Shown here: positions 44,334 to 60,591 of the stretch, piece after piece
Position numbering within the stretch: position 1 is the stretch's first letter
Layout of the letters: each line of letters begins with the position of its first letter
Assembly (NCBI RefSeq): GCF_949628265.1
Contig: NC_088788.1
Location: forward strand, 16,182,001-16,246,000
Direction of reading: 5' to 3'
Length of the DNA stretch: 64,000 nt
From: Cloeon dipterum
Lineage: Eukaryota; Arthropoda; Insecta; Ephemeroptera; Baetidae
Position numbers and translations under genes: made by a program
Notes under the pieces: model-generated
Database searches by the model: none
The model's input: only the letters and a program-made list of their open reading frames with translations
What the model was told of the DNA's origin: nothing

Positions 44334-47300
44334 TTAATTAAAATATTTCCCCTTGGTTGCTGATATGATCTTAGCTTTGAGCCAATTGATGTTGACCTCC
44401 TTATTCTTTTTTGCTGACGAGCCGTCTTCTCCATTCGTCTCCATTATAAAATCGTCCTCAGGCGGGATGACAGCGTATTGGTACCACATGGCTTGGATAG
44501 AGAAGACAATCATGCAGAGAAACATGATTCCGGCGTAAATCAAAATTTCCCATACCTGCATTCAAAGCAAATTGAAATGAGAAAATCACAAATATTTTAG
44601 CTTACCGCGTCTTTGCAGATTTGTGCTCCAGAAATGGCAATGACGATTACGTTGCCGAATGCGACTGATGTTAGCAAACCAGACATTATCATAGTTTTCA
44701 TGCTCCTGGGAGACTATGCACATATCAACAGGCATTATCATTAAGGCTGACTTTTATTAAAAAAAATGAATTACCTGAGAAAATGCGAATCCTAGACCAG
44801 TAATTGCGTATAAAATCTCGCTACAGGCCATTAAAAAATATTGTGGAATTAGCCAGAGCACGCTGACATAGTTTTCAGGCGTGATTGTTGTAACGGCAAA
44901 CTAAAATAAATCCATAAAACCAAACAAGATTTTCAAAAATGAAATCCGTACACTCCTCTTTTCTTCGTTCAAAACCATGGTGTAAACTCCGCCCGTGCCA
45001 AAAACCACTGAACCTAATTGTGTATTATTTACAACAGCTATTTGAACATCATACCTAAAAATTAATAATAAGTGTCATTTGAAGAAAACATATTTTGCAC
45101 TGCTTATATACTCATCATTCTCAAGTTCTTTGATATCTGAGGCGGATATTTCTCCCGTGAAAAAGAAAGAATATTTAGAGCCACTTCGTTTTCCCGATAG
45201 ATTTACAATAACTGGTACGTTACGTAATTTGGCATTCATCACAAGCCTATGTCAAAATTTTAGAACTAAAATATTAAATGAATAAATTACAATACTACCT
45301 AACTTTGGAATAACCTTTCTGAGATTTACGAGGGCTGTCAATGATCCTATCTGACATCTCCAACGTATTTTCTCCAGCGAAAACATAGCTTTGGGCCTTG
45401 AATGGAGTTTTTAATTATTGAAAATCGTAAAAATAGAAATTCGAATCTGATTTGGTAAAACCAATCGATTTCTTGAGAGTCAAATTAGATTAGACCGCCC
45501 AATCACTCGATCAATTTGACACAACGTGCCGAAAAACGGCGAAACTAAAAAAAATTACTTTTTGGTTTCGCCAAGGTGCCAGGTCGAGACGGTATAGCGA
45601 CACAGCTATTGATGCCTCCTGTCTCGATATTCTCTCCATGATTAATCGTCGACGATCTTGTTACACTATTTGCAAGGTGCAGACAAAAGCCTTATAAGGT
45701 ATTGGTTTTTACGTTTTTAGTGTTTCTGAAGATTTTCAGCGCGCCATGTCAAATTTTCGACCGAGACTAACTATTTTGACCTTCGGGCATCGATTGGCAT
45801 TCAAAATGAAATTCCAGAGCTTCTTATTTGAAAATTCACCTGCTCCTCAGAAATTTTAATGTTAAATTCACTTCCTCTCAGTCCTTCTGCGCATTGCTCG
45901 CCAGGTCTAACTTTCAAATTGACAGTCTTGAAATTTTTAACTGGTAGATGCAAATTCTGCCAGGCGAGGTAAGGGTCAATATCGATTTCTCCTGTTAGGA
46001 TATTCGACGTCAGATTGGAAGAAACCGAAATGGGACAGTCCAGCGCGTTGAACAGCCGGAGCTGAGCCTCTCTCCTGTAAGGAATGATTGGATCCGTCGG
46101 ATTGATGGCCAACTCGACGCCCGCCGAAACAAGGAACGCCACGCCGGCCAGAGTTCCACCTAAGACCATTTTCTTCAGCGGTGTCTGCAAAATATCCAGC
46201 TTTTTGAACAGGGGAAAGAGAAGCAGTTCGAAAACTGGAATCATCGTAATCAAGAGCAGGGGGCTCAGCAGCTGGATTTGGTCGGGAAAGACTTTCCGTC
46301 CGTCAAAATCGCAGTCCATTCTGGAAGCTTGGAACGTCCATCGAGAACCCTTTTTTAAGGAACATATAATTAACAGACAAAGAGGGAATTTTAAAATTAA
46401 CCTTTTGATCGTAAAGGGCCCAGAAAAAGGGAACAGTCAGAAACATTTTCCACACTGCAAATCCAAGTTTTATATCAGAAATGAATTTCCCGTCAAACTT
46501 TTTCCGTGCAAAGTCAAGCCAGTGCTGTTTCTTTGCCATATTCTTTCTGTTTTTAATTTTTTTCCTGATGGCATACTAACAGAAATAAACTATAATTAAT
46601 TCCGTATGCCAATAATTTTTACACGCAGAATTCTTACCACGACGCACTTGGTAACCTGCACAAGGACATTACCCTCCGGGCCTTTAATGATGTAAAATGA
46701 CTTTCCAGCGACGAAAATTCCTATGGGATAACAAATTAATTGTAATTTACAAATTATTATAATGATGAAAATCATAACATTGAAATTTTATCTGTATTTT
46801 TCAGTATTAATTCAAATTTAATTAAATGCAGTCATTCCTCGCAGATACAAACCTATTGCAAGCATGATGAAAATAGTGGAAATGCCGAAAGAGAGCGGGT
46901 AGCAAGTGTCCATGCCGAGACAGTCTCTCGCTCTTAATATCGGCGAGAAAAATGACGCAATCGCACTGGCCAGACTCATCAAGACGTAATAGACGGGGAA
47001 AAACTTTTGCTGGCGATCTCTGCGATCAGGGCAATCGAACTGATCTCCACCGAACACAGCCACGCACGGCGCCAATACGCCATTGCCACAGCCAGCCAAG
47101 AGGAGGCCGATAAACGTCAAAACCCTGTAAATAAAATGTCTCCTTCACCCGAAATTTTGAGGGCTAATTAATTACGCGGGACCAAGGATATCGGGGATGG
47201 AGCTGATAAACATCATTACTATTCCCATTCCGTAAACTAGCGACCCAACCAATAAAGTTCTGAAATATGGTTTGGATTATTAGCGAACGATGAATCTAAT

Positions 47301-47677
47301 TTATGCTAACTTGAATCTGCCAAGCCAGTTATCGGCAATAATTCCACCGAAAATGGGAGTGGCGAAGAGAATGACGTTGAACGAGTGGTAAATCAAGGTG
47401 GAAAAATCCTCAGGAAAGCCAAGCTGCTGCACTAGGTAGAGAAGTAAAATTGCTGAAATTTTTGAATAGGTTATAATATATCTTAGCTTTTTCCCCCCTG
47501 TTATTTCCATGTCTTACTCCGCATCCAAAACAGACACAGTCGCTGAAGCAACTCAAATCCAGCGATGAAAAATATCGCGAATGGATATTTGGATTTTTTC
47601 TGAAAAATAAAATGTAAAAAACTCATATGGAGGATATTATTGATGCTTACAGGTTTTGCATCAGTTGACTCCTCCAT
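44334..47677 (-). CDS. SLC15/PTR2-family oligopeptide transporter, paralog 1 (721 aa)
   Basis: Fourteen exons: 47651-47677, 47518-47599, 47311-47452, 47176-47259, 46853-47124, 46638-46720, 46402-46575, 45840-46349, 45299-45396, 45112-45246, 44952-45054, 44775-44900, 44606-44713 and 44334-44555. They give 2,166 nt. Family marks are GGIIADNWLGRFK (residues 72-84), FGGDQF (136-141), HWLD before TM7, WALYDQKGSRWTFQ, the large ectodomain between TM9 and TM10, and the TM10 block IPQYFLMACSEILYAITGL. The first-helix proton-coupling motif ExxER is instead ELLQR (25-29), and the Lys preceding PCV...FGGDQF in mammalian PepT1 is Ala130. The TM2 histidine (His59, PepT1 His57) and TM10 glutamate remain. 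It is a plasma-membrane di/tripeptide-type carrier by family; substrate and coupling are uncertain. Exon 8/9 is split by an intron that the other two paralogs lack. Start: ATG MEESTDAKP in exon 1; an in-frame upstream start is possible. Confidence 0.92.
45397..45839 (-). other. Intron unique to SLC15 paralog 1, containing repeat A copy 3
   Basis: It separates residues ...EEQ and AQSY... of the ectodomain. Paralogs 2 and 3 read straight through the same point (EKQ|AQSY) in exons 49107-49711 and 53282-53883. The segment 45440-45600 is a plus-strand copy of repeat family A: ACCAATCGATTTCTTGAG, TCAAATTAGATTAG, CAATCACTCG, CGGCGAAAC and GGTTTCGCC in order. The splice sites are GTGAAT (donor) and TTCAAG (acceptor). 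Confidence 0.8.
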
Positions 47678-48229
47678 CTTTCTACGATCAATGAGGGGCA
47701 CTGGCGATGCATTAAGTTTATTCTTTCTTTCCAGCAGTCTGTCGAGATAAAGTATTTGTTCAAATAAGAAGCGACGCACACACAGAGATCACAGAGATCA
47801 ATAGTTGAGCTCTTTCCTTGTCGGTATAGTAACCACCTGTCCATTTATCAATATTGCACCATCGCCCTGAAGATAAAAGGTCTTAAAATCCAGATGCGCT
47901 CCCCGTGTCAATAATATGAAGTTGACTGCAAAAAACGTGTGTATGCCACCCGCACTGAAAAGCTGCGTTGCGGCACAGTTTCCATCTAAGCGCAAGGCGC
48001 ACTGACGTTGATTTTTTGCTATACGAGACTAGAATTTTAATTTTCATTGCAATTATTTTTCTAAGAGATAAATAAGTTGATCCCGCGGCAACTAAATTTT
48101 ATAAAAATAAAATTTCAGCATGTTTTCATGTGAAACATTATTTGTATTTTTTTGCTTTTTTTACAAATACATACATATATCTTCTACAAAAAGGCTTTCT
48201 GGAACTACACCAAATGCTTTATAGATAGT
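47678..48229 (-). other. Promoter and 5' flank of SLC15 paralog 1, 3' flank of paralog 2
   Basis: About 550 bp between the paralog-2 stop and the paralog-1 start. An open frame at 47798-47995 is read in the same direction but has no start-to-exon connection. It contains LFSAGGIHTFF, faintly like the GGGGVYTLV block of the ectodomain. No other feature is seen. Confidence 0.5.
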
Positions 48230-51200
48230 TTACTTCTTTTTTTCAACAGATTCAGCAGCAGTTTCCTTTTCATTTTTTTCACTTTCCTCATCGTCTTCGA
48301 TTTCCAAATAAGTATACCTGGCGGCTTGCACGGCGAAGATGGCCATGCTAAAAAACATGAGCCCAGCGAATAGCACGTATTCCCATAGCTAAATCGAATA
48401 TTATGATTGCTATTTTCTATTAAAATATTCAAATGTTTTTTACCATTTTCCTGAATATTTGAGCGCCGGCAAATCCGATGACAACAATGTTTCCGACCGC
48501 CACTGCGATCATCCAGCCAGACATGATCACAGTTTTCATGCTTTTTGGGGCCTAGCAGACAATTAATTTTTCAGTATGAATAATTTATATAATTTACCTG
48601 TGAGAATGCAAATCCAAGGCCAGTGATAGAGAACAACATCTCGCCAATCGCCATCATGAAGTATTGAGGAACCTGCCAGAACACGTTCACCGTGTTTTCA
48701 GGTGTCATCGTTTGAACAAAGAACTGAATAAAAATAATTCAATCGAAATGGTTGCTTTTAAAATAAATTTCCGTGTGAGAACCTTGCCGACTTCTTGATT
48801 TATAACTAGTGTGTAAACGCCACCTCCTCCAAAGAATGTTTGACCGATTTGAACCTGATTTATTTCCACCTGGTACCTGAGGTAATTATTAGCAACAAAA
48901 TGAAGTTTTAAAGACAGTCATGAATTACACACCCATCAGGATCGATTTCGATAAATTCAGATTCAGCAACGTCACCCAAAAATATGACGCTGTGAACGTG
49001 CTTTCCTCTTAAAGTCACGGTGACACTTGAATCCTCATTGGCGTTCATCACGATTCTGGCAAACATTTTAAGATTTATACTTAAATATTAATATATTTTA
49101 ACTTACCTAACTCTTGATGAGCCAATCCGTGATTTTTCAGAGCTGTCCAAAAACCTGTCAGATAATTTCAGTGCTTTTTTGGGACCGATACCGTCGTGAA
49201 AAGCGTAACTTTGGGCCTGCTTCTCAAACAAGGAAATCTCAAAATCGGTTTTGCTCGCTCCAATGCCGCACTCACTCGAAGGCGTTGCATTTAAAGTGAA
49301 GGTCCTCTCATTTTGCACCGAGATATACAGATTCTGCCAAGACTGCATGGGAGGAATATCAAAATCTCCGGTAAGATTTGAGGAAATGTTAATATTGCAG
49401 TCCAAAGTGCTGAGTAGTCGGAGTTGCGCCTCTCCTGGATTCGGAATTACAGCGTCCGTCGGATAAATCGCAACTTCCACTCCTGCCGACAGTAAAAAAG
49501 CTACTCCTGCCAAAATTCCTCCAACAACCATTTTCTTCAGAGGCGTTGGCCGAGCTCCTAATTTTTTCAGAATCGGAAAAATGGCCACTTCGAATAAAGG
49601 AGTCATGGTCATAATTAGCAGCGGACTCATAATCTGCATTTGCTCAGGCTGAACTCGCCAGCTACCAAAGTCGCACTGCATTCTCGTCGCTTGAAATGTC
49701 CAGCGGGAAAACTGCGAAATATAATATGTTACTTTTTCGAAATATTTAAATGAGAAGTGAACCTTTTGGTCAAACAGGGCCCAGAAAATTGGAACAGTTA
49801 GGAACATTTTCAAGACTTTCAAACCGAGTTTCGTGTCGGCGATCAATTTCGGATGAAATTTATCAGCAGCGTGGTCCAGCCAATGTTCCTTCGGTTCCTT
49901 CTTCTCTGTGTTTCTGTTCTTGATCCTCATTTTCACTCCATGCTAATTTGTTATTTTAATATAAGTAAAAAATCAGAATAATAAAGGAAAGCTCAGCCCA
50001 AAATCGGATTACCTCACCGCAATACATTTCGAAACTTGAACAACGACGTCGCCTTTTGGTGCATCACACTTATAAAACGATTTTCCGCCAATGAAAATCA
50101 CTGCGGAAAAGTAGAAACAAATTTTGATTATTTTTCTGACAGTCAAATTAGAGTTAGATCATTTATTTGTAGTTATTTTCCTTTTATTAAATCTTAAATA
50201 TTAAGAAATATTTAATTATTCTCAATGGGCAGCAGATTTACTTAGCAAATTTAATTAGGCAGCCGTAAAAAGAGCCCTCAGAAAAGTACATATGGCATTT
50301 CTATTTTACCTTTCGTGATAATAAAAGCGGAATTTCACTCATTTCATTATAAAAAAGTTGAAAGAGGAGGTTTTATTGAAGACATGGCAAAATTATTACT
50401 TTGTCAACTTATTCCCTTTGAGTTTAATCCATTTCTTTTAAGAGTACGCCGATTGAAAAATAATTTTTATGAAAAAAATAAACTCTTGGCAGTACCAAAC
50501 GAGAGCAGTATGAAAATAGAAGAGATGCCGAAGGACAAAGGATAGCAGCTGTCATTGCCCAGACAGTCTGTCGTCCTCAAAATTGGCGAAATGATGATGG
50601 CGATGAAGCTGGCCACGTTCACCGCAACGTACATGACGGAGAAAAACTTCTGCGGCTCGTCTCTCTGCTCTGGGAGCACGAATTGATCTCCGCCAAAAAC
50701 GTTAATGCACGGCGCCACGATTCCCTTGCCCGTGGCGGTCAAGAAGAGGCCGAGAAAGGTCAATATTCTAAAAATTTAATTAAATTTCAACGAGAAAATG
50801 CACTTAAAAATTCATATAAATATTTACGATGTGATTATAATGTCCGGAATAGAGCTCACGAGAACGGCACCAATGCCCAAACTGTAGAAGATGGACCCAA
50901 ATAAAATCGTTCTGAAATTAATTTTAATTTTTAGATCGTCATCTCATGACAATTTTTATGAACTTGTAATTTCCGAGCCAATTGTCAGCAATGATTCCAC
51001 CTAAAACTGGCGAGATGTATTGAATAACGGTGAATAAGTGGAACACCATGGTGGCGATGTATTCTTCGAGTCCGAGCCAATGCACCAGGTAAATAGAGAG
51101 TACAGCTTTTAAAATCAAAATCAATTAGAATATTATAATTATTAAAATTTTACTTCTCATTGTGTAGAAACTGAACCGTTGGGTTAATTCGAAGCCAGCA

Positions 51201-51307
51201 ATGAAAAAAATCGCTCGCGGGTACTTTGTTTTCTGCAAGTGCAAATTAATTTGGTACTTCGACTGAATTTTAAATATAACTTTTCCTCACACGGCTGCTT
51301 CTTCCAT
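48230..51307 (-). CDS. SLC15/PTR2-family oligopeptide transporter, paralog 2 (689 aa)
   Basis: Thirteen exons: 51293-51307, 51154-51232, 50964-51105, 50828-50911, 50496-50767, 50018-50100, 49763-49942, 49107-49711, 48933-49055, 48783-48876, 48598-48723, 48444-48551 and 48230-48388. They give 2,070 nt. Exon sizes match paralog 3 almost exactly. It has GGIIADNWLGNYK, FGGDQFVLPEQ, HWLDHAADKF, WTFQATRM, FGGGGVYTLV and PQYFMMAIGEMLFSITGLG. The first helix reads ELTQR (residues 20-24) with YTMRT in place of the usual YYGMR, and the expected Lys before PC.NVFGGDQF is Ala. The TM2 histidine and TM10 glutamate are kept. The very short exon 1 (MEEAA) uses a GTGTGA donor, the weakest part of the model; phase requires it. 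The C-terminal tail is highly charged (EDDEESEKNEKE). Expected to be a plasma-membrane peptide carrier with 12 helices. Confidence 0.92.
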
Positions 51308-52179
51308 TTTCCTCGGCAGATCCAGACAATGGGGTTTTTATTGTGAAATGTCCAGCTCGAATTCCATCAATATCGATTTGTGCAACCAGACTAATTATAG
51401 CTTGTCTGGTCTTGGGATTATCGAAATCTTTTATGCTGGTTCATTATCAACAGATTTATCAGAAACTTTAAGATAACCAAAGAAGTCAGCTGTGCAGCCT
51501 TTGATAAAGGTAGTAAAATGATTATAAAGTTCGAAGAAATTATTGAGAATACAACGGGAAAATTTTCATGTATCCCAAATCTCCACAATGGAAGTGACCT
51601 GATTGCTGCTTTCTTAAAATTAATTAACTGTTACATTTAAAGTGTAAATTTGTAAGTTTATAGTTTTTATATAGCCTTTGCGTTTCAAGCTTAATTTCTT
51701 GAGTGTAAAAACGATTTTGATGAAATCTTAATGGTGAAATAAAACTTTGGTGGCGAATTTAAAAAGGCATAAAATTTATTGAATGCGTATGAAAAAATAC
51801 ATTATAATCATTATACATCAGTATCAAATGAAATTCTTTTATTTTTCAACATTTAGTAAATTCAACGACATCATGTTTGTGTTTAAATAATTAATTAAAT
51901 TTAAACACTTTGTCGTTTACCCATACTCTGAAAATACTTCATTTAACAGCAGAGATCCAAACACATTTAAGTTTGAGGGGTGGTAATATCACATGCACCC
52001 TGGAGTTGTTGTAAATATCGTAAATATCAATGACGCTCAGCTACAAATTAATTTTTTAATGAACTTCAGTCCTGAATTTTAATTTAAATGGTATAAGTTT
52101 CCAGAAACGGTAAAATATTTAGCTTTTCAATTTTTCTTTTTTGATCAAAAATCAAATTTCAAAGTTTGCCTGATCGTGA
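51308..52179 (-). other. Intergenic DNA between SLC15 paralogs 2 and 3
   Basis: AT-rich. It holds the paralog-2 promoter and paralog-3 3' UTR by position. No motif, repeat or open frame worth calling is seen. Confidence 0.6.
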
Positions 52180-55100
52180 TTAATTCTTTTCTGGTAAAGA
52201 TTCGGGGGTAACGCTATCTTCTTCGTCCTTCTTTTCGTTTTCTTCATCCTCAGACGGAATTTCAACGTATGTATACCTCACAGCCTGTACAGCGAAGACA
52301 ACCATGCTCAAAAACATGAGCCCGGCGAAAAGCACGTATTCCCAAAGCTAAAACCAAAAATTAAAATGGTTAATTTTTTATTGAAATACACCAATTTTAC
52401 CATTTTTCTGAAGATTTGAGCGCCAGCAAATCCAATGACAACAATGTTTCCGACCGCAACCGCAATAAGCCAGCCAGACATGATCAACGTTTTCATACTT
52501 TTCGGGGCCTGAAATTTTTTAGCAATATTTCACTTTTTAGAAAGGCCGGTGGCTTGCTAATTGTTTTACCTGCGTGAATGCAAATCCAAGGCCAGTAATG
52601 GAGAACAACATTTCACCAATAGCCATCGTGAAGTATTGAGGCACTTGCCAAAACACGTTCACCATATTTGCTGGCGTAATCGTGATCACATTAAACTAAA
52701 AAAAAAGAATTAGTAGAGAGAATAAATAAAATTCCAGCTAGCAACCTTGCTAATTTTTCGATTTATTTGCAGAGTGTAAACTCCACCTCCGCCGAAGGAG
52801 GCTTTACCGATTGGAATTTGGTCCACTTCAATCTGGTATCTGTGGAAATTTTGATGAGACAAAATTTTTTAGTCTAGTTTTGTCACGTAAGTTGTTATCT
52901 TGAACGAGGCTTTTAAACTCTAAATCTTTTTATCTAATCTTTCGAATTGCATAATAATTTCAATTTGAAAATTTTGCTTAAAATATTTGAAAGGGTGCAC
53001 TTACTCAGCAGAGTCCATTTCGATAAAACCAGAGTCAGATATTTCGCCCACAAATATGATGCTGTGAACTTTTTTCCCTCTTAAAGTCACAGGGACGCCT
53101 GTAGTCACGTTGGAATTCAACACGATTCTTGTATTTGCCAAACAAAAGAATACGTTAAAACCGGTTAAAACAAATAAAACAATATGTACACATTCAGGAA
53201 AATTCATGGTATTACGAAATGACTATATTAATTTTATGTTTTTACAAGAAAATTTTCTTAATTTAATCATTTTCATATTACCTCACTCTCGATGAGCCAA
53301 TCCGCGATTTTTCAGTGCTGTCCGAATTTCTATTGGACAATTTAAGTGTTGTAGGAGCGATGCCATCGTGAAAAGTATAGCTTTGGGCCTGCTTCTCAAA
53401 CAAGGAAATTTCAAATTCAGTTTCGCTCGTTCCAATGCCGCACTCGTTTGCAGCCGTTGCTTTTAAATTGAATCTCCTCTCAGTTTGCACAGGTATATAC
53501 AAATTTTGCCACGACTGCAGGGGAGGAATTTGGAAATCCCCGGTCACATCAGAGGAAATGCCAATGTTGCAGTCCAGAGAGTTGAGCAGCCGCAGTTGCG
53601 CCTCTCCTTTGAACGGAGTCACAGCGTCCGTTGAATCAATGGCTAGTTCTACTCCGGCAGAGAGCAAAAATGCGACGCCGGCCAAAACTCCTCCCAGGAC
53701 CATTTTCTTCAGCGGCGTTTGCAGGATCTTCAGCTTTTTCAGCACTGGAAAAATGGCCACTTCAAACACGGGGGCCATGATCATGATCAGCAGAGGACTC
53801 AAGATCTGCATTTGGTCCGGCTGCACTTTCCAGCTGCCGAAGTCGCAAAGCATTCTCGTCGCTTGGAACGTCCATCGCGAACCCTGAAAGATTTAATGGA
53901 TTGGATATTTGGTGCATGAATTAATAATATTTGCTGGACCTTTTGATCGTAGAGGGCCCAGAAAAAGGGTACGGTGAGGAACATTTTCAACACTTTCAAA
54001 CCCAGTTTTGTGTCAGCAATCAATTTCGGATCGAATTTGTCCGCGGCGTGGTCCAGCCAATGCTCCTTCTTCTCACCCTTCCTGTTTTTGACCCTCATTT
54101 TAACCCCGTGCTAAAAATCTTTGAATTTGAAATAGCTAAAAAGAATAAATTTGAATTTTCTCACCGCAACACATTTTGAAACCTGGACAAAAATATCTCC
54201 ATGTGGTGCTTTAATCTTGTAAAACGGTTTTCCAGAGATGAAAATTACTGAAAATAAAAAAAAGAATCAGATAAAACGTTTATTTCAAAGAAATAAATGT
54301 TAATTAATTAATGAATAAACAGAGGTGTAAACTCTAGTGCATTCAAACAAAAAGTGAGGCAAATTTTTCTTGCCAAATACTAAACTTACTGACCGATTTT
54401 CTTTATTTCCCTCTGTTATAAAAAAAAATGTTTTGTATTTTTATCTGTTGTGTTCTGAATATGGGGAGGTATGGAGCTTAATTGCTCTGCTGATCCGCAA
54501 TAAAATCACTCTGAATCTAAATCTGTCAATGCCATCTGAATAAATAAAAAAATTCCCGCTCCAAAGAATGTAATAGCAGCTTCAGGAACGATTTAGATTG
54601 TTCTTAACGATTTTTTCAGGAGTCAAAGTCTAAAAATTGCGTAACTTCTGATTGTTTGGCGTTCAAAAGAAAATCAGATATGACGTTTAGAAAAAAGCCA
54701 ACCATTTAAAATTCAAACTCGTCTTTCTTTTAAAATAATCTGTTTTTTACCAAACGAAAGAAGAATGAAAACGGATGAGATGCCGAAAGACAGGGGGTAG
54801 CAGCTGTCGCTTCCAAGACATTCTGTCGTCCTCAAAATCGGCGAGATGATGGTAGCGACGAAGCTGGCGACGCACACGGCAACGTAGGTGACGGAGAAGA
54901 AGGTCTGCTGCTGATCTTTCTGTTCCGGAAACACGAATTGGTCTCCGCCAAAAACGTTGACGCACGGCGCCACAATGCCGTGGCCCAAGGCGGTCATGAA
55001 GAGGCCGAGGTACGTCAAAACCCTACAAAATAATTATTTATATCAATAGTATTCTAAATTAAATAGTACATTATTTATGAAAATTATTACGCTGTGATGA

Positions 55101-55598
55101 TGATATCCGGAATGGAGCTTATAAGAATTGTTATAATTCCCAAACTGTAGAACACTGAGCCGAATATAATTGTTCTGGAATTAAATTTTTTAATCAATCT
55201 ATTTTTAATAAATTAAAAATTCACACACTTATAATTTCCAAGCCAGTTGTCTGCAATTATTCCGCCTAAAATCGGAGTAATGTACTGCACAACGTTGAAC
55301 AAGTGGTAGACAACAGTGGCGACGTACTCCTGCAGATCGAGCCAATACACCAGGTAAATAGACAGAACAGCTATTTTGAAAAAAATTAGACGTTGAACTG
55401 AAAATTATATAATACATTACTTCTCATCGTGTAGAGACAGAATCGCTGACTCAACTCAAATCCTGCTATGAAAAACACCGCACGTGGGTATTTTGTTTTC
55501 TGCAAATTAACATTATATATTAAATAGCTAAAACAAAAGAAAAGTATTAAACATTGTCTTACTTGTTTTTCAGTTTTTTCTTCATTTGGTCCGTCCAT
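52180..55598 (-). CDS. SLC15/PTR2-family oligopeptide transporter, paralog 3 (695 aa)
   Basis: Thirteen exons: 55563-55598, 55421-55499, 55229-55370, 55091-55174, 54751-55022, 54165-54247, 53940-54110, 53282-53883, 53005-53127, 52746-52839, 52570-52695, 52401-52508 and 52180-52347. They give 2,088 nt. The start is MDGPNEEKTEKQ in exon 1. Family marks are GGIIADNWLGNYK, FGGDQFVFPEQ, EHWLDHAADKF, WALYDQKGSRWTFQ and PQYFTMAIGEMLFSITGLG. The first helix has ELSQR and YTMRT in place of ExxER and YYG, and the conserved Lys before PCVNVFGGDQF is Ala, as in the other two copies. Introns occur at the same positions and phases as in paralog 2, so the two probably arose by tandem duplication. The acidic tail ends SLPEKN. 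Function is assigned by family only; transport mechanism may differ from canonical PepT1. Confidence 0.92.
54441..54508 (+). repeat. Dispersed repeat family B, full-length copy
   Basis: Located in the long intron of SLC15 paralog 3 (54248-54750). It reads ATCTGTTGTGTTCTGAATAT, then GTATGGAGC, then CTCTGCTGATCCGCAATAAA. An inverted copy lies at 43.0 kb and a partial copy at 32.2 kb. Confidence 0.65.

Positions 55599-59471: not shown

Positions 59472-60591
<1,120 letters not shown>

Follow-up and report, generated by a model that had tools for sequence, protein, structure and literature searches.

Three tandem SLC15A1/2-type genes of Cloeon dipterum with glutamine in the ExxER motif and alanine for the TM4 lysine: candidates for altered proton coupling

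Can peptide transporters that have lost the second glutamate of the ExxER motif and the lysine of transmembrane helix 4 (TM4) still be working carriers, and if so, of what kind? The question is raised by a 64,000-nucleotide stretch of the genome of Cloeon dipterum (Insecta, Ephemeroptera; RefSeq assembly GCF_949628265.1, 190 Mb in 10 contigs), positions 16,182,001 to 16,246,000 of the forward strand of contig NC_088788.1, here called the window. It holds three complete multi-exon genes of the SLC15A1/2 type, arranged in tandem on the minus strand in the order A, B, C (Table 1). A preliminary description made from the letters alone had placed them at 44334..55598, and this span was correct, with the start codon of gene A at 55598 and the end of the gene C stop codon at 44334. 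It had also called the genes intact with full-length frames. The spliced models agreed, yielding proteins of 695, 689 and 721 amino acids with a terminal stop codon only and GT-AG introns throughout. The three proteins are 53.5-76.8% identical to each other.

The two residues in question were read directly from an alignment of the six PepT-type proteins of this genome with human PepT1 and PepT2; residue numbers below are those of PepT1. In the column of Glu26 (E23xxE26R27) A, B and C all have Gln, the motifs being ELSQR, ELTQR and ELLQR and the Gln codons CAG, CAA and CAG, respectively. In the TM4 column of Lys140 all three have Ala, encoded by GCG. The three canonical paralogs, designated D, E and F, have EFCER and the TM4 Lys in every case (3/3). 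Both motif blocks were gapless, so misalignment was rejected as the source of the Gln and Ala, and both columns aligned identically when a different MAFFT setting was applied to a larger set of rows. No Glu or Lys fell at the coupling columns of A, B or C, and the residues named in the preliminary description were thus confirmed. Chance and sequencing error were also rejected because the same changes occur in three diverged genes with differing Gln codons. Reported work on PepT1 and PepT2 supports a role of both positions in coupling or in binding a substrate end (PMC8565842, PMC11464717), as the preliminary description had assumed.

By descent, A, B and C belong to the SLC15/POT family. Their best exons scored 80.7, 109.7 and 95.7 bits, respectively, against PTR2 (Pfam PF00854), all above the curated cut-off of 27 bits. 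Among solved structures the top match of protein A was human PepT1, with an E value of 4.2e-128 over A residues 15-685. Genome searches with the Pfam model and with protein A, which score only the best candidates, followed by spliced modelling, gave the three further PepT-type genes D, E and F (L009, L010 and L011). Scores against TIGR00926 (NCBIfam) were 573.5, 582.1 and 540.1 for A, B and C and 733.4, 744.2 and 720.8 for D, E and F; the cut-off of 821.6 bits was reached by none of the six, canonical genes included, and does not separate the trio. The Pfam search also found one distant gene, L012 (G000:C5:4897500-4907000, from about 3149 onward, plus strand), whose best solved match was SLC15A4 (E value 1.2e-39). 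Its motif reads LFLER where SLC15A4 has ELLER; Leu replaces the first Glu, with the second Glu, the motif Arg and the TM4 Lys retained.

A phylogenetic analysis, in which the trait columns remained in the alignment, placed A, B and C in one clade, with support of 100/100 and a stem length of 0.74 changes per column. The preliminary description had asked whether the Gln/Ala pair defines a clade, and it does. The Gln state needs a single change on this tree. Because the trio forms one clade, one ancestral event is indicated instead of three, and three independent substitutions were rejected. The most plausible reading of the shared changes is a single old event whose outcome was retained through the subsequent duplications. 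The earlier argument that a joint change in three paralogs speaks against a single mutation therefore needs correction, as the three genes are not three lines of evidence. A and B were sisters (99/99), in agreement with the gene structures: the intron at 45839-45397 of gene C is found at the same place in D, E and F and is missing from A and B, where one unbroken exon spans the site. The six PepT-type genes of the genome were split from mammalian PepT1 and PepT2 with support of 100/100. For the attachment of the trio among D, E and F no arrangement was rejected in the approximately unbiased (AU) test (p-AU 0.30 for trio plus E, 0.34 for trio plus D, 0.36 for trio plus F, and 0.116 for D, E and F together), and when DtpA was added, whether the SLC15A4-like gene was included or not, the outgroup branches of the trees were too long for rooting. 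The ratio of nonsynonymous to synonymous divergence (dN/dS) was 0.138 for A and B at a dS of 0.97, and 0.185 for A and C at a dS of 1.74; the remaining 13 of the 15 gene pairs were at or near dS saturation. The trio is under purifying selection, and its three copies have been retained for a long time.

Further changes were found at the substrate site. In human PepT1, the peptide N-terminus is reported to be bound by Asn171, Asn329 and Glu595, with optional binding of the C-terminus by Arg27 and Lys140 (PMC8565842). The Asn329 column is Ser in all three proteins, and the Asn171 column has Cys in A and Ser in C, with Asn retained in B. The N-terminus triad is thus incomplete, with Glu595 in 3/3, Asn329 in 0/3 and Asn171 in B only. 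Gene C alone additionally has Tyr31Phe, Tyr64Phe and Trp622Leu. Unchanged in A, B and C are Glu23, Arg27, Tyr40, His57, Tyr167, Arg185, Trp294, Asp298, Ser302, Glu595 and Asn630. This bears out the earlier remark that the TM2 His (His57) and the TM10 Glu (Glu595) are kept, in 3/3 genes. Among the residues of the extracellular gate, His57, Ser302, Asp298 and Arg185 were kept in all three, and Asp323 is replaced, by Glu, in B only.

What these states could mean for the transport cycle follows from the mammalian proteins. Structures and simulations of PepT2 with antibiotics are reported to show that protonation of the second ExxER Glu frees the motif Arg to clamp the substrate carboxylate and that deprotonation retracts it, through a salt-bridge swap between Arg57 and Glu56; Arg57 and Lys161 of TM4 form the carboxylate pocket (PMC11464717). 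A proton path proposed from simulations of PepT2 runs from His87 of TM2 and the outer-gate Asp342 to Glu53/Glu56 of ExxER and Glu622 of TM10 (PMC11265797). In the trio, Gln may act as a neutral stand-in for the protonated Glu, and the motif Arg would be released, or paired with Glu23 only, at any pH. One inner proton site would be gone. With the TM4 Lys of the carboxylate pocket lost too, one acid and one base would have disappeared, and the net charge of these cavity residues would be unchanged. The carrier can probably still cycle because the outer-gate residues (His57, Ser302, Asp298 and Arg185 with Asp/Glu323) and Glu595 remain, and alternating access should persist. Facilitated transport, or transport coupled to fewer protons, is predicted, with recognition of the amino end altered or narrowed; the predicted change of function would be greatest in C and least in B.

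From these residue states we infer a release of the Arg, a weakening or loss of coupling and a change of substrate. The trio probably works differently from ordinary proton-driven peptide transporters. In the specific form considered here, the three proteins would be working carriers with an inner proton switch locked in a state that resembles the protonated one, with weakened or lost proton coupling and with an altered substrate, a reading to which we assign a probability just short of one half (about 0.48). It is favored by the residue states relative to the canonical proteins, by the single clade with its one change of state and by the purifying selection. One duplicate of a canonical PepT gene would then have lost the inner proton switch before the trio arose, and three selectively maintained carriers of the SLC15A1/2 type would descend from it. 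A narrower proposal is speculative and, on balance, unlikely: an animal SLC15 subfamily with a permanently protonated Glu-to-Gln switch, charge-balanced by the loss of the TM4 Lys, acting as a facilitative or one-proton carrier of a different small solute and kept and amplified as a tandem trio.

Several observations weigh against a fixed proton switch. The first concerns the extent of divergence. D, E, F, human PepT1 and human PepT2 share one residue in 171 columns, and A, B and C all differed in 36 of these, compared with 1 of 131 in the mirror count, where D, E and F all differ and A, B, C, PepT1 and PepT2 agree. The alignment setting with more rows gave 37 of 173. When PepTSo and DtpA were required to agree as well, 48 invariant columns remained, and all three genes differed in six of them (E26, G32, I132, K140, G173 and N329). 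That so few are changed in the whole trio, and that E26Q, K140A and N329S are three of these six, speaks for the fixed switch. However, 19 named functional residues, chosen by us, were not enriched among the changes, either for change in all three genes (4/19 versus 37/173, P = 0.61) or for change in any gene (9/19 versus 66/173, P = 0.26). Because of this lack of enrichment the trio is taken to have diverged broadly and not only at the coupling site, and the pattern fits general divergence as well as targeted change. The case for a change aimed at the coupling site is weaker in this respect than the preliminary description suggested. The second observation concerns the residue aligned with Thr136, a helical turn ahead of the missing Lys140 of TM4. 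It is Lys in B, His in A and Asn in C; the Lys of B and the His of A might compensate for the loss.

The remaining points against the fixed switch are those that favor ordinary proton-driven peptide transport. In that case His57, Asp/Glu323, Glu23 and Glu595 would carry the coupling, and the proteins would tolerate the Gln and Ala, which would affect kinetics or selectivity alone. All of these acidic and histidine residues are kept in the trio, and Glu23, His57 and Glu595 could still carry protons. An E1XXQ2Y variant of E. coli DtpC is reported to retain high transport rates (PMC9309889), and some plant NPF7 members reportedly couple protons independently of ExxER (PMC12780319). Ordinary coupling through other residues is a real rival on the strength of these two precedents. 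On the other hand, replacing either Glu of a conventional ExxER by Gln reportedly abolishes uptake (PMC9309889), and the trio keeps the motif Arg, unlike DtpC, and has lost the TM4 Lys and Asn329 as well. We regard ordinary coupling as somewhat unlikely.

A less probable outcome would be SLC15 proteins that no longer transport and that, with fold and gating kept, sense substrates, act as scaffolds or partner the canonical paralogs. Contacts to the peptide ends are lost in all three proteins, Tyr31, Tyr64 and Trp622 are lost in C, and selection still acts on the genes, all of which such a role would accommodate. All three retain the gate residues and the TM10 Glu, however, which is unexpected for a protein that does not move, and we consider this role distinctly improbable. 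Decay of the duplicates into pseudogenes, to which the long clade stem and the many otherwise conserved columns changed in all three genes could point, was rejected as very improbable on the intact frames with GT-AG introns and the low dN/dS of A and B.

Among known systems, the plant NPF clades and E. coli DtpC are precedents. The trio resembles SLC15A1 and SLC15A2 in being homologous over nearly the whole length and in keeping His57, Arg27, Glu595 and the gate residues. It differs in that the motif reads ExxQR, Ala has replaced the TM4 Lys and Ser has replaced Asn329, and in further changes; an intact ExxER (0/3) and the TM4 Lys (0/3), as in canonical PepT proteins, were absent. Two plant clades are similar in that the TM1 motif has been lost clade-wide. 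The NPF2a (NAXT) genes are often clustered, and at least four of those in Arabidopsis are reported to be passive nitrate or chloride transporters (PMC6288477); NPF7 is described as lacking both the TM1 motif and the TM4-TM10 salt bridge (PMC6288477, PMC12780319). In contrast, the plant proteins mostly lose all charges of the motif, and 84 of 94 NPF2a proteins are reported to retain the TM4-TM10 salt bridge. The trio is of the animal PepT type, retains Glu23 and Arg27 and loses the TM4 Lys; by the published definition of NPF2a, the loss of the chargeable TM1 motif residues (PMC6288477), it falls outside, as only Glu26 is lost. The atypical POT DtpC is likewise a natural ExxER variant with changed substrate contacts, but its Q1XXE2Y motif is reported to have lost the first Glu and the Arg and kept the second Glu (PMC9309889). 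The trio shows the reverse, the second Glu being lost and the first Glu and the Arg kept in 3/3 genes. The SLC15A3/4 (PHT) type is represented in the same genome by L012, which is far more distant and is changed in the other half of the motif.

Searches for relatives elsewhere gave limited returns. A scan of bacterial contigs for relatives of the six proteins gave none. When DtpA and two of the canonical paralogs served as queries, the best 80 of 532 relatives all came, judging by their titles, from Enterobacterales or enterobacterial metagenome-assembled genomes; the search pattern demands ExxER, so the frequency of second-Glu loss is unmeasurable in this set. No ExxQR clade of animal SLC15 proteins was recognised in the literature searched, a partial coverage with most subscription journals outside it.

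Table 1. Positions in the window of the three SLC15A1/2-type genes, their exons and selected codons (columns named by PepT1 residue)
Feature	Position	Strand	Remark
Gene A (ELSQR)	55598-52180	-	13 exons, 695 aa; exon model with a single open reading frame, all introns GT-AG; human PepT1 the top match among solved structures
Gene A exons	55598-55563, 55499-55421, 55370-55229, 55174-55091, 55022-54751, 54247-54165, 54110-53940, 53883-53282, 53127-53005, 52839-52746, 52695-52570, 52508-52401, 52347-52180	-	
Gene B (ELTQR)	51307-48230	-	13 exons, 689 aa; modelled by spliced alignment with gene A, terminal exons and reading frame set and checked
Gene B exons	51307-51293, 51232-51154, 51105-50964, 50911-50828, 50767-50496, 50100-50018, 49942-49763, 49711-49107, 49055-48933, 48876-48783, 48723-48598, 48551-48444, 48388-48230	-	
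Gene C (ELLQR)	47677-44334	-	14 exons, 721 aa; modelled by spliced alignment with gene A, terminal exons and reading frame set and checked
Gene C exons	47677-47651, 47599-47518, 47452-47311, 47259-47176, 47124-46853, 46720-46638, 46575-46402, 46349-45840, 45396-45299, 45246-45112, 45054-44952, 44900-44775, 44713-44606, 44555-44334	-	
Gene A Gln30 (CAG)	55446..55448	-	Glu26 column
Gene B Gln23 (CAA)	51179..51181	-	Glu26 column
Gene C Gln28 (CAG)	47543..47545	-	Glu26 column
Gene A Ala132 (GCG)	54968..54970	-	Lys140 column, TM4
Gene B Ala125 (GCG)	50713..50715	-	Lys140 column, TM4
Gene C Ala130 (GCG)	47070..47072	-	Lys140 column, TM4
Gene B Lys	50725-50727	-	Thr136 column
Gene A Ser318 (AGT)	53797..53799	-	Asn329 column
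Gene B Ser314 (AGT)	49625..49627	-	Asn329 column
Gene C Ser317 (AGC)	46263..46265	-	Asn329 column
Gene A His61	55303..55305	-	His57 column, kept
Gene B His	51038-51040	-	His57 column, kept
Gene C His	47385-47387	-	His57 column, kept
Gene A Glu590	52612..52614	-	Glu595 column, kept
Gene B Glu	48640-48642	-	Glu595 column, kept
Gene C Glu	44817-44819	-	Glu595 column, kept

Elsewhere in the window, an open frame on the minus strand at 59472-59978 contains a core histone domain (PF00125, 1.5e-48). Nine other long open reading frames of the window, scanned alongside it, gave no Pfam match, and an Rfam scan of the window gave no match.

Loss of the motif is already known in the superfamily, from the plant NPF clades and from DtpC; what is new here is the variant in an animal lineage of the PepT type. 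The Glu-to-Gln change reported to abolish uptake in a conventional ExxER (PMC9309889) has nevertheless been retained in three intact genes. If the trio moves anything, it would lend itself readily to testing which residues link protons to peptides in PepT transporters, and ordinary chimeras with D, E and F could be used for this. If the reading of a fixed inner switch and an altered substrate is true, the three genes would be an animal parallel to the plant NPF clades that lack the motif and carry other substrates.

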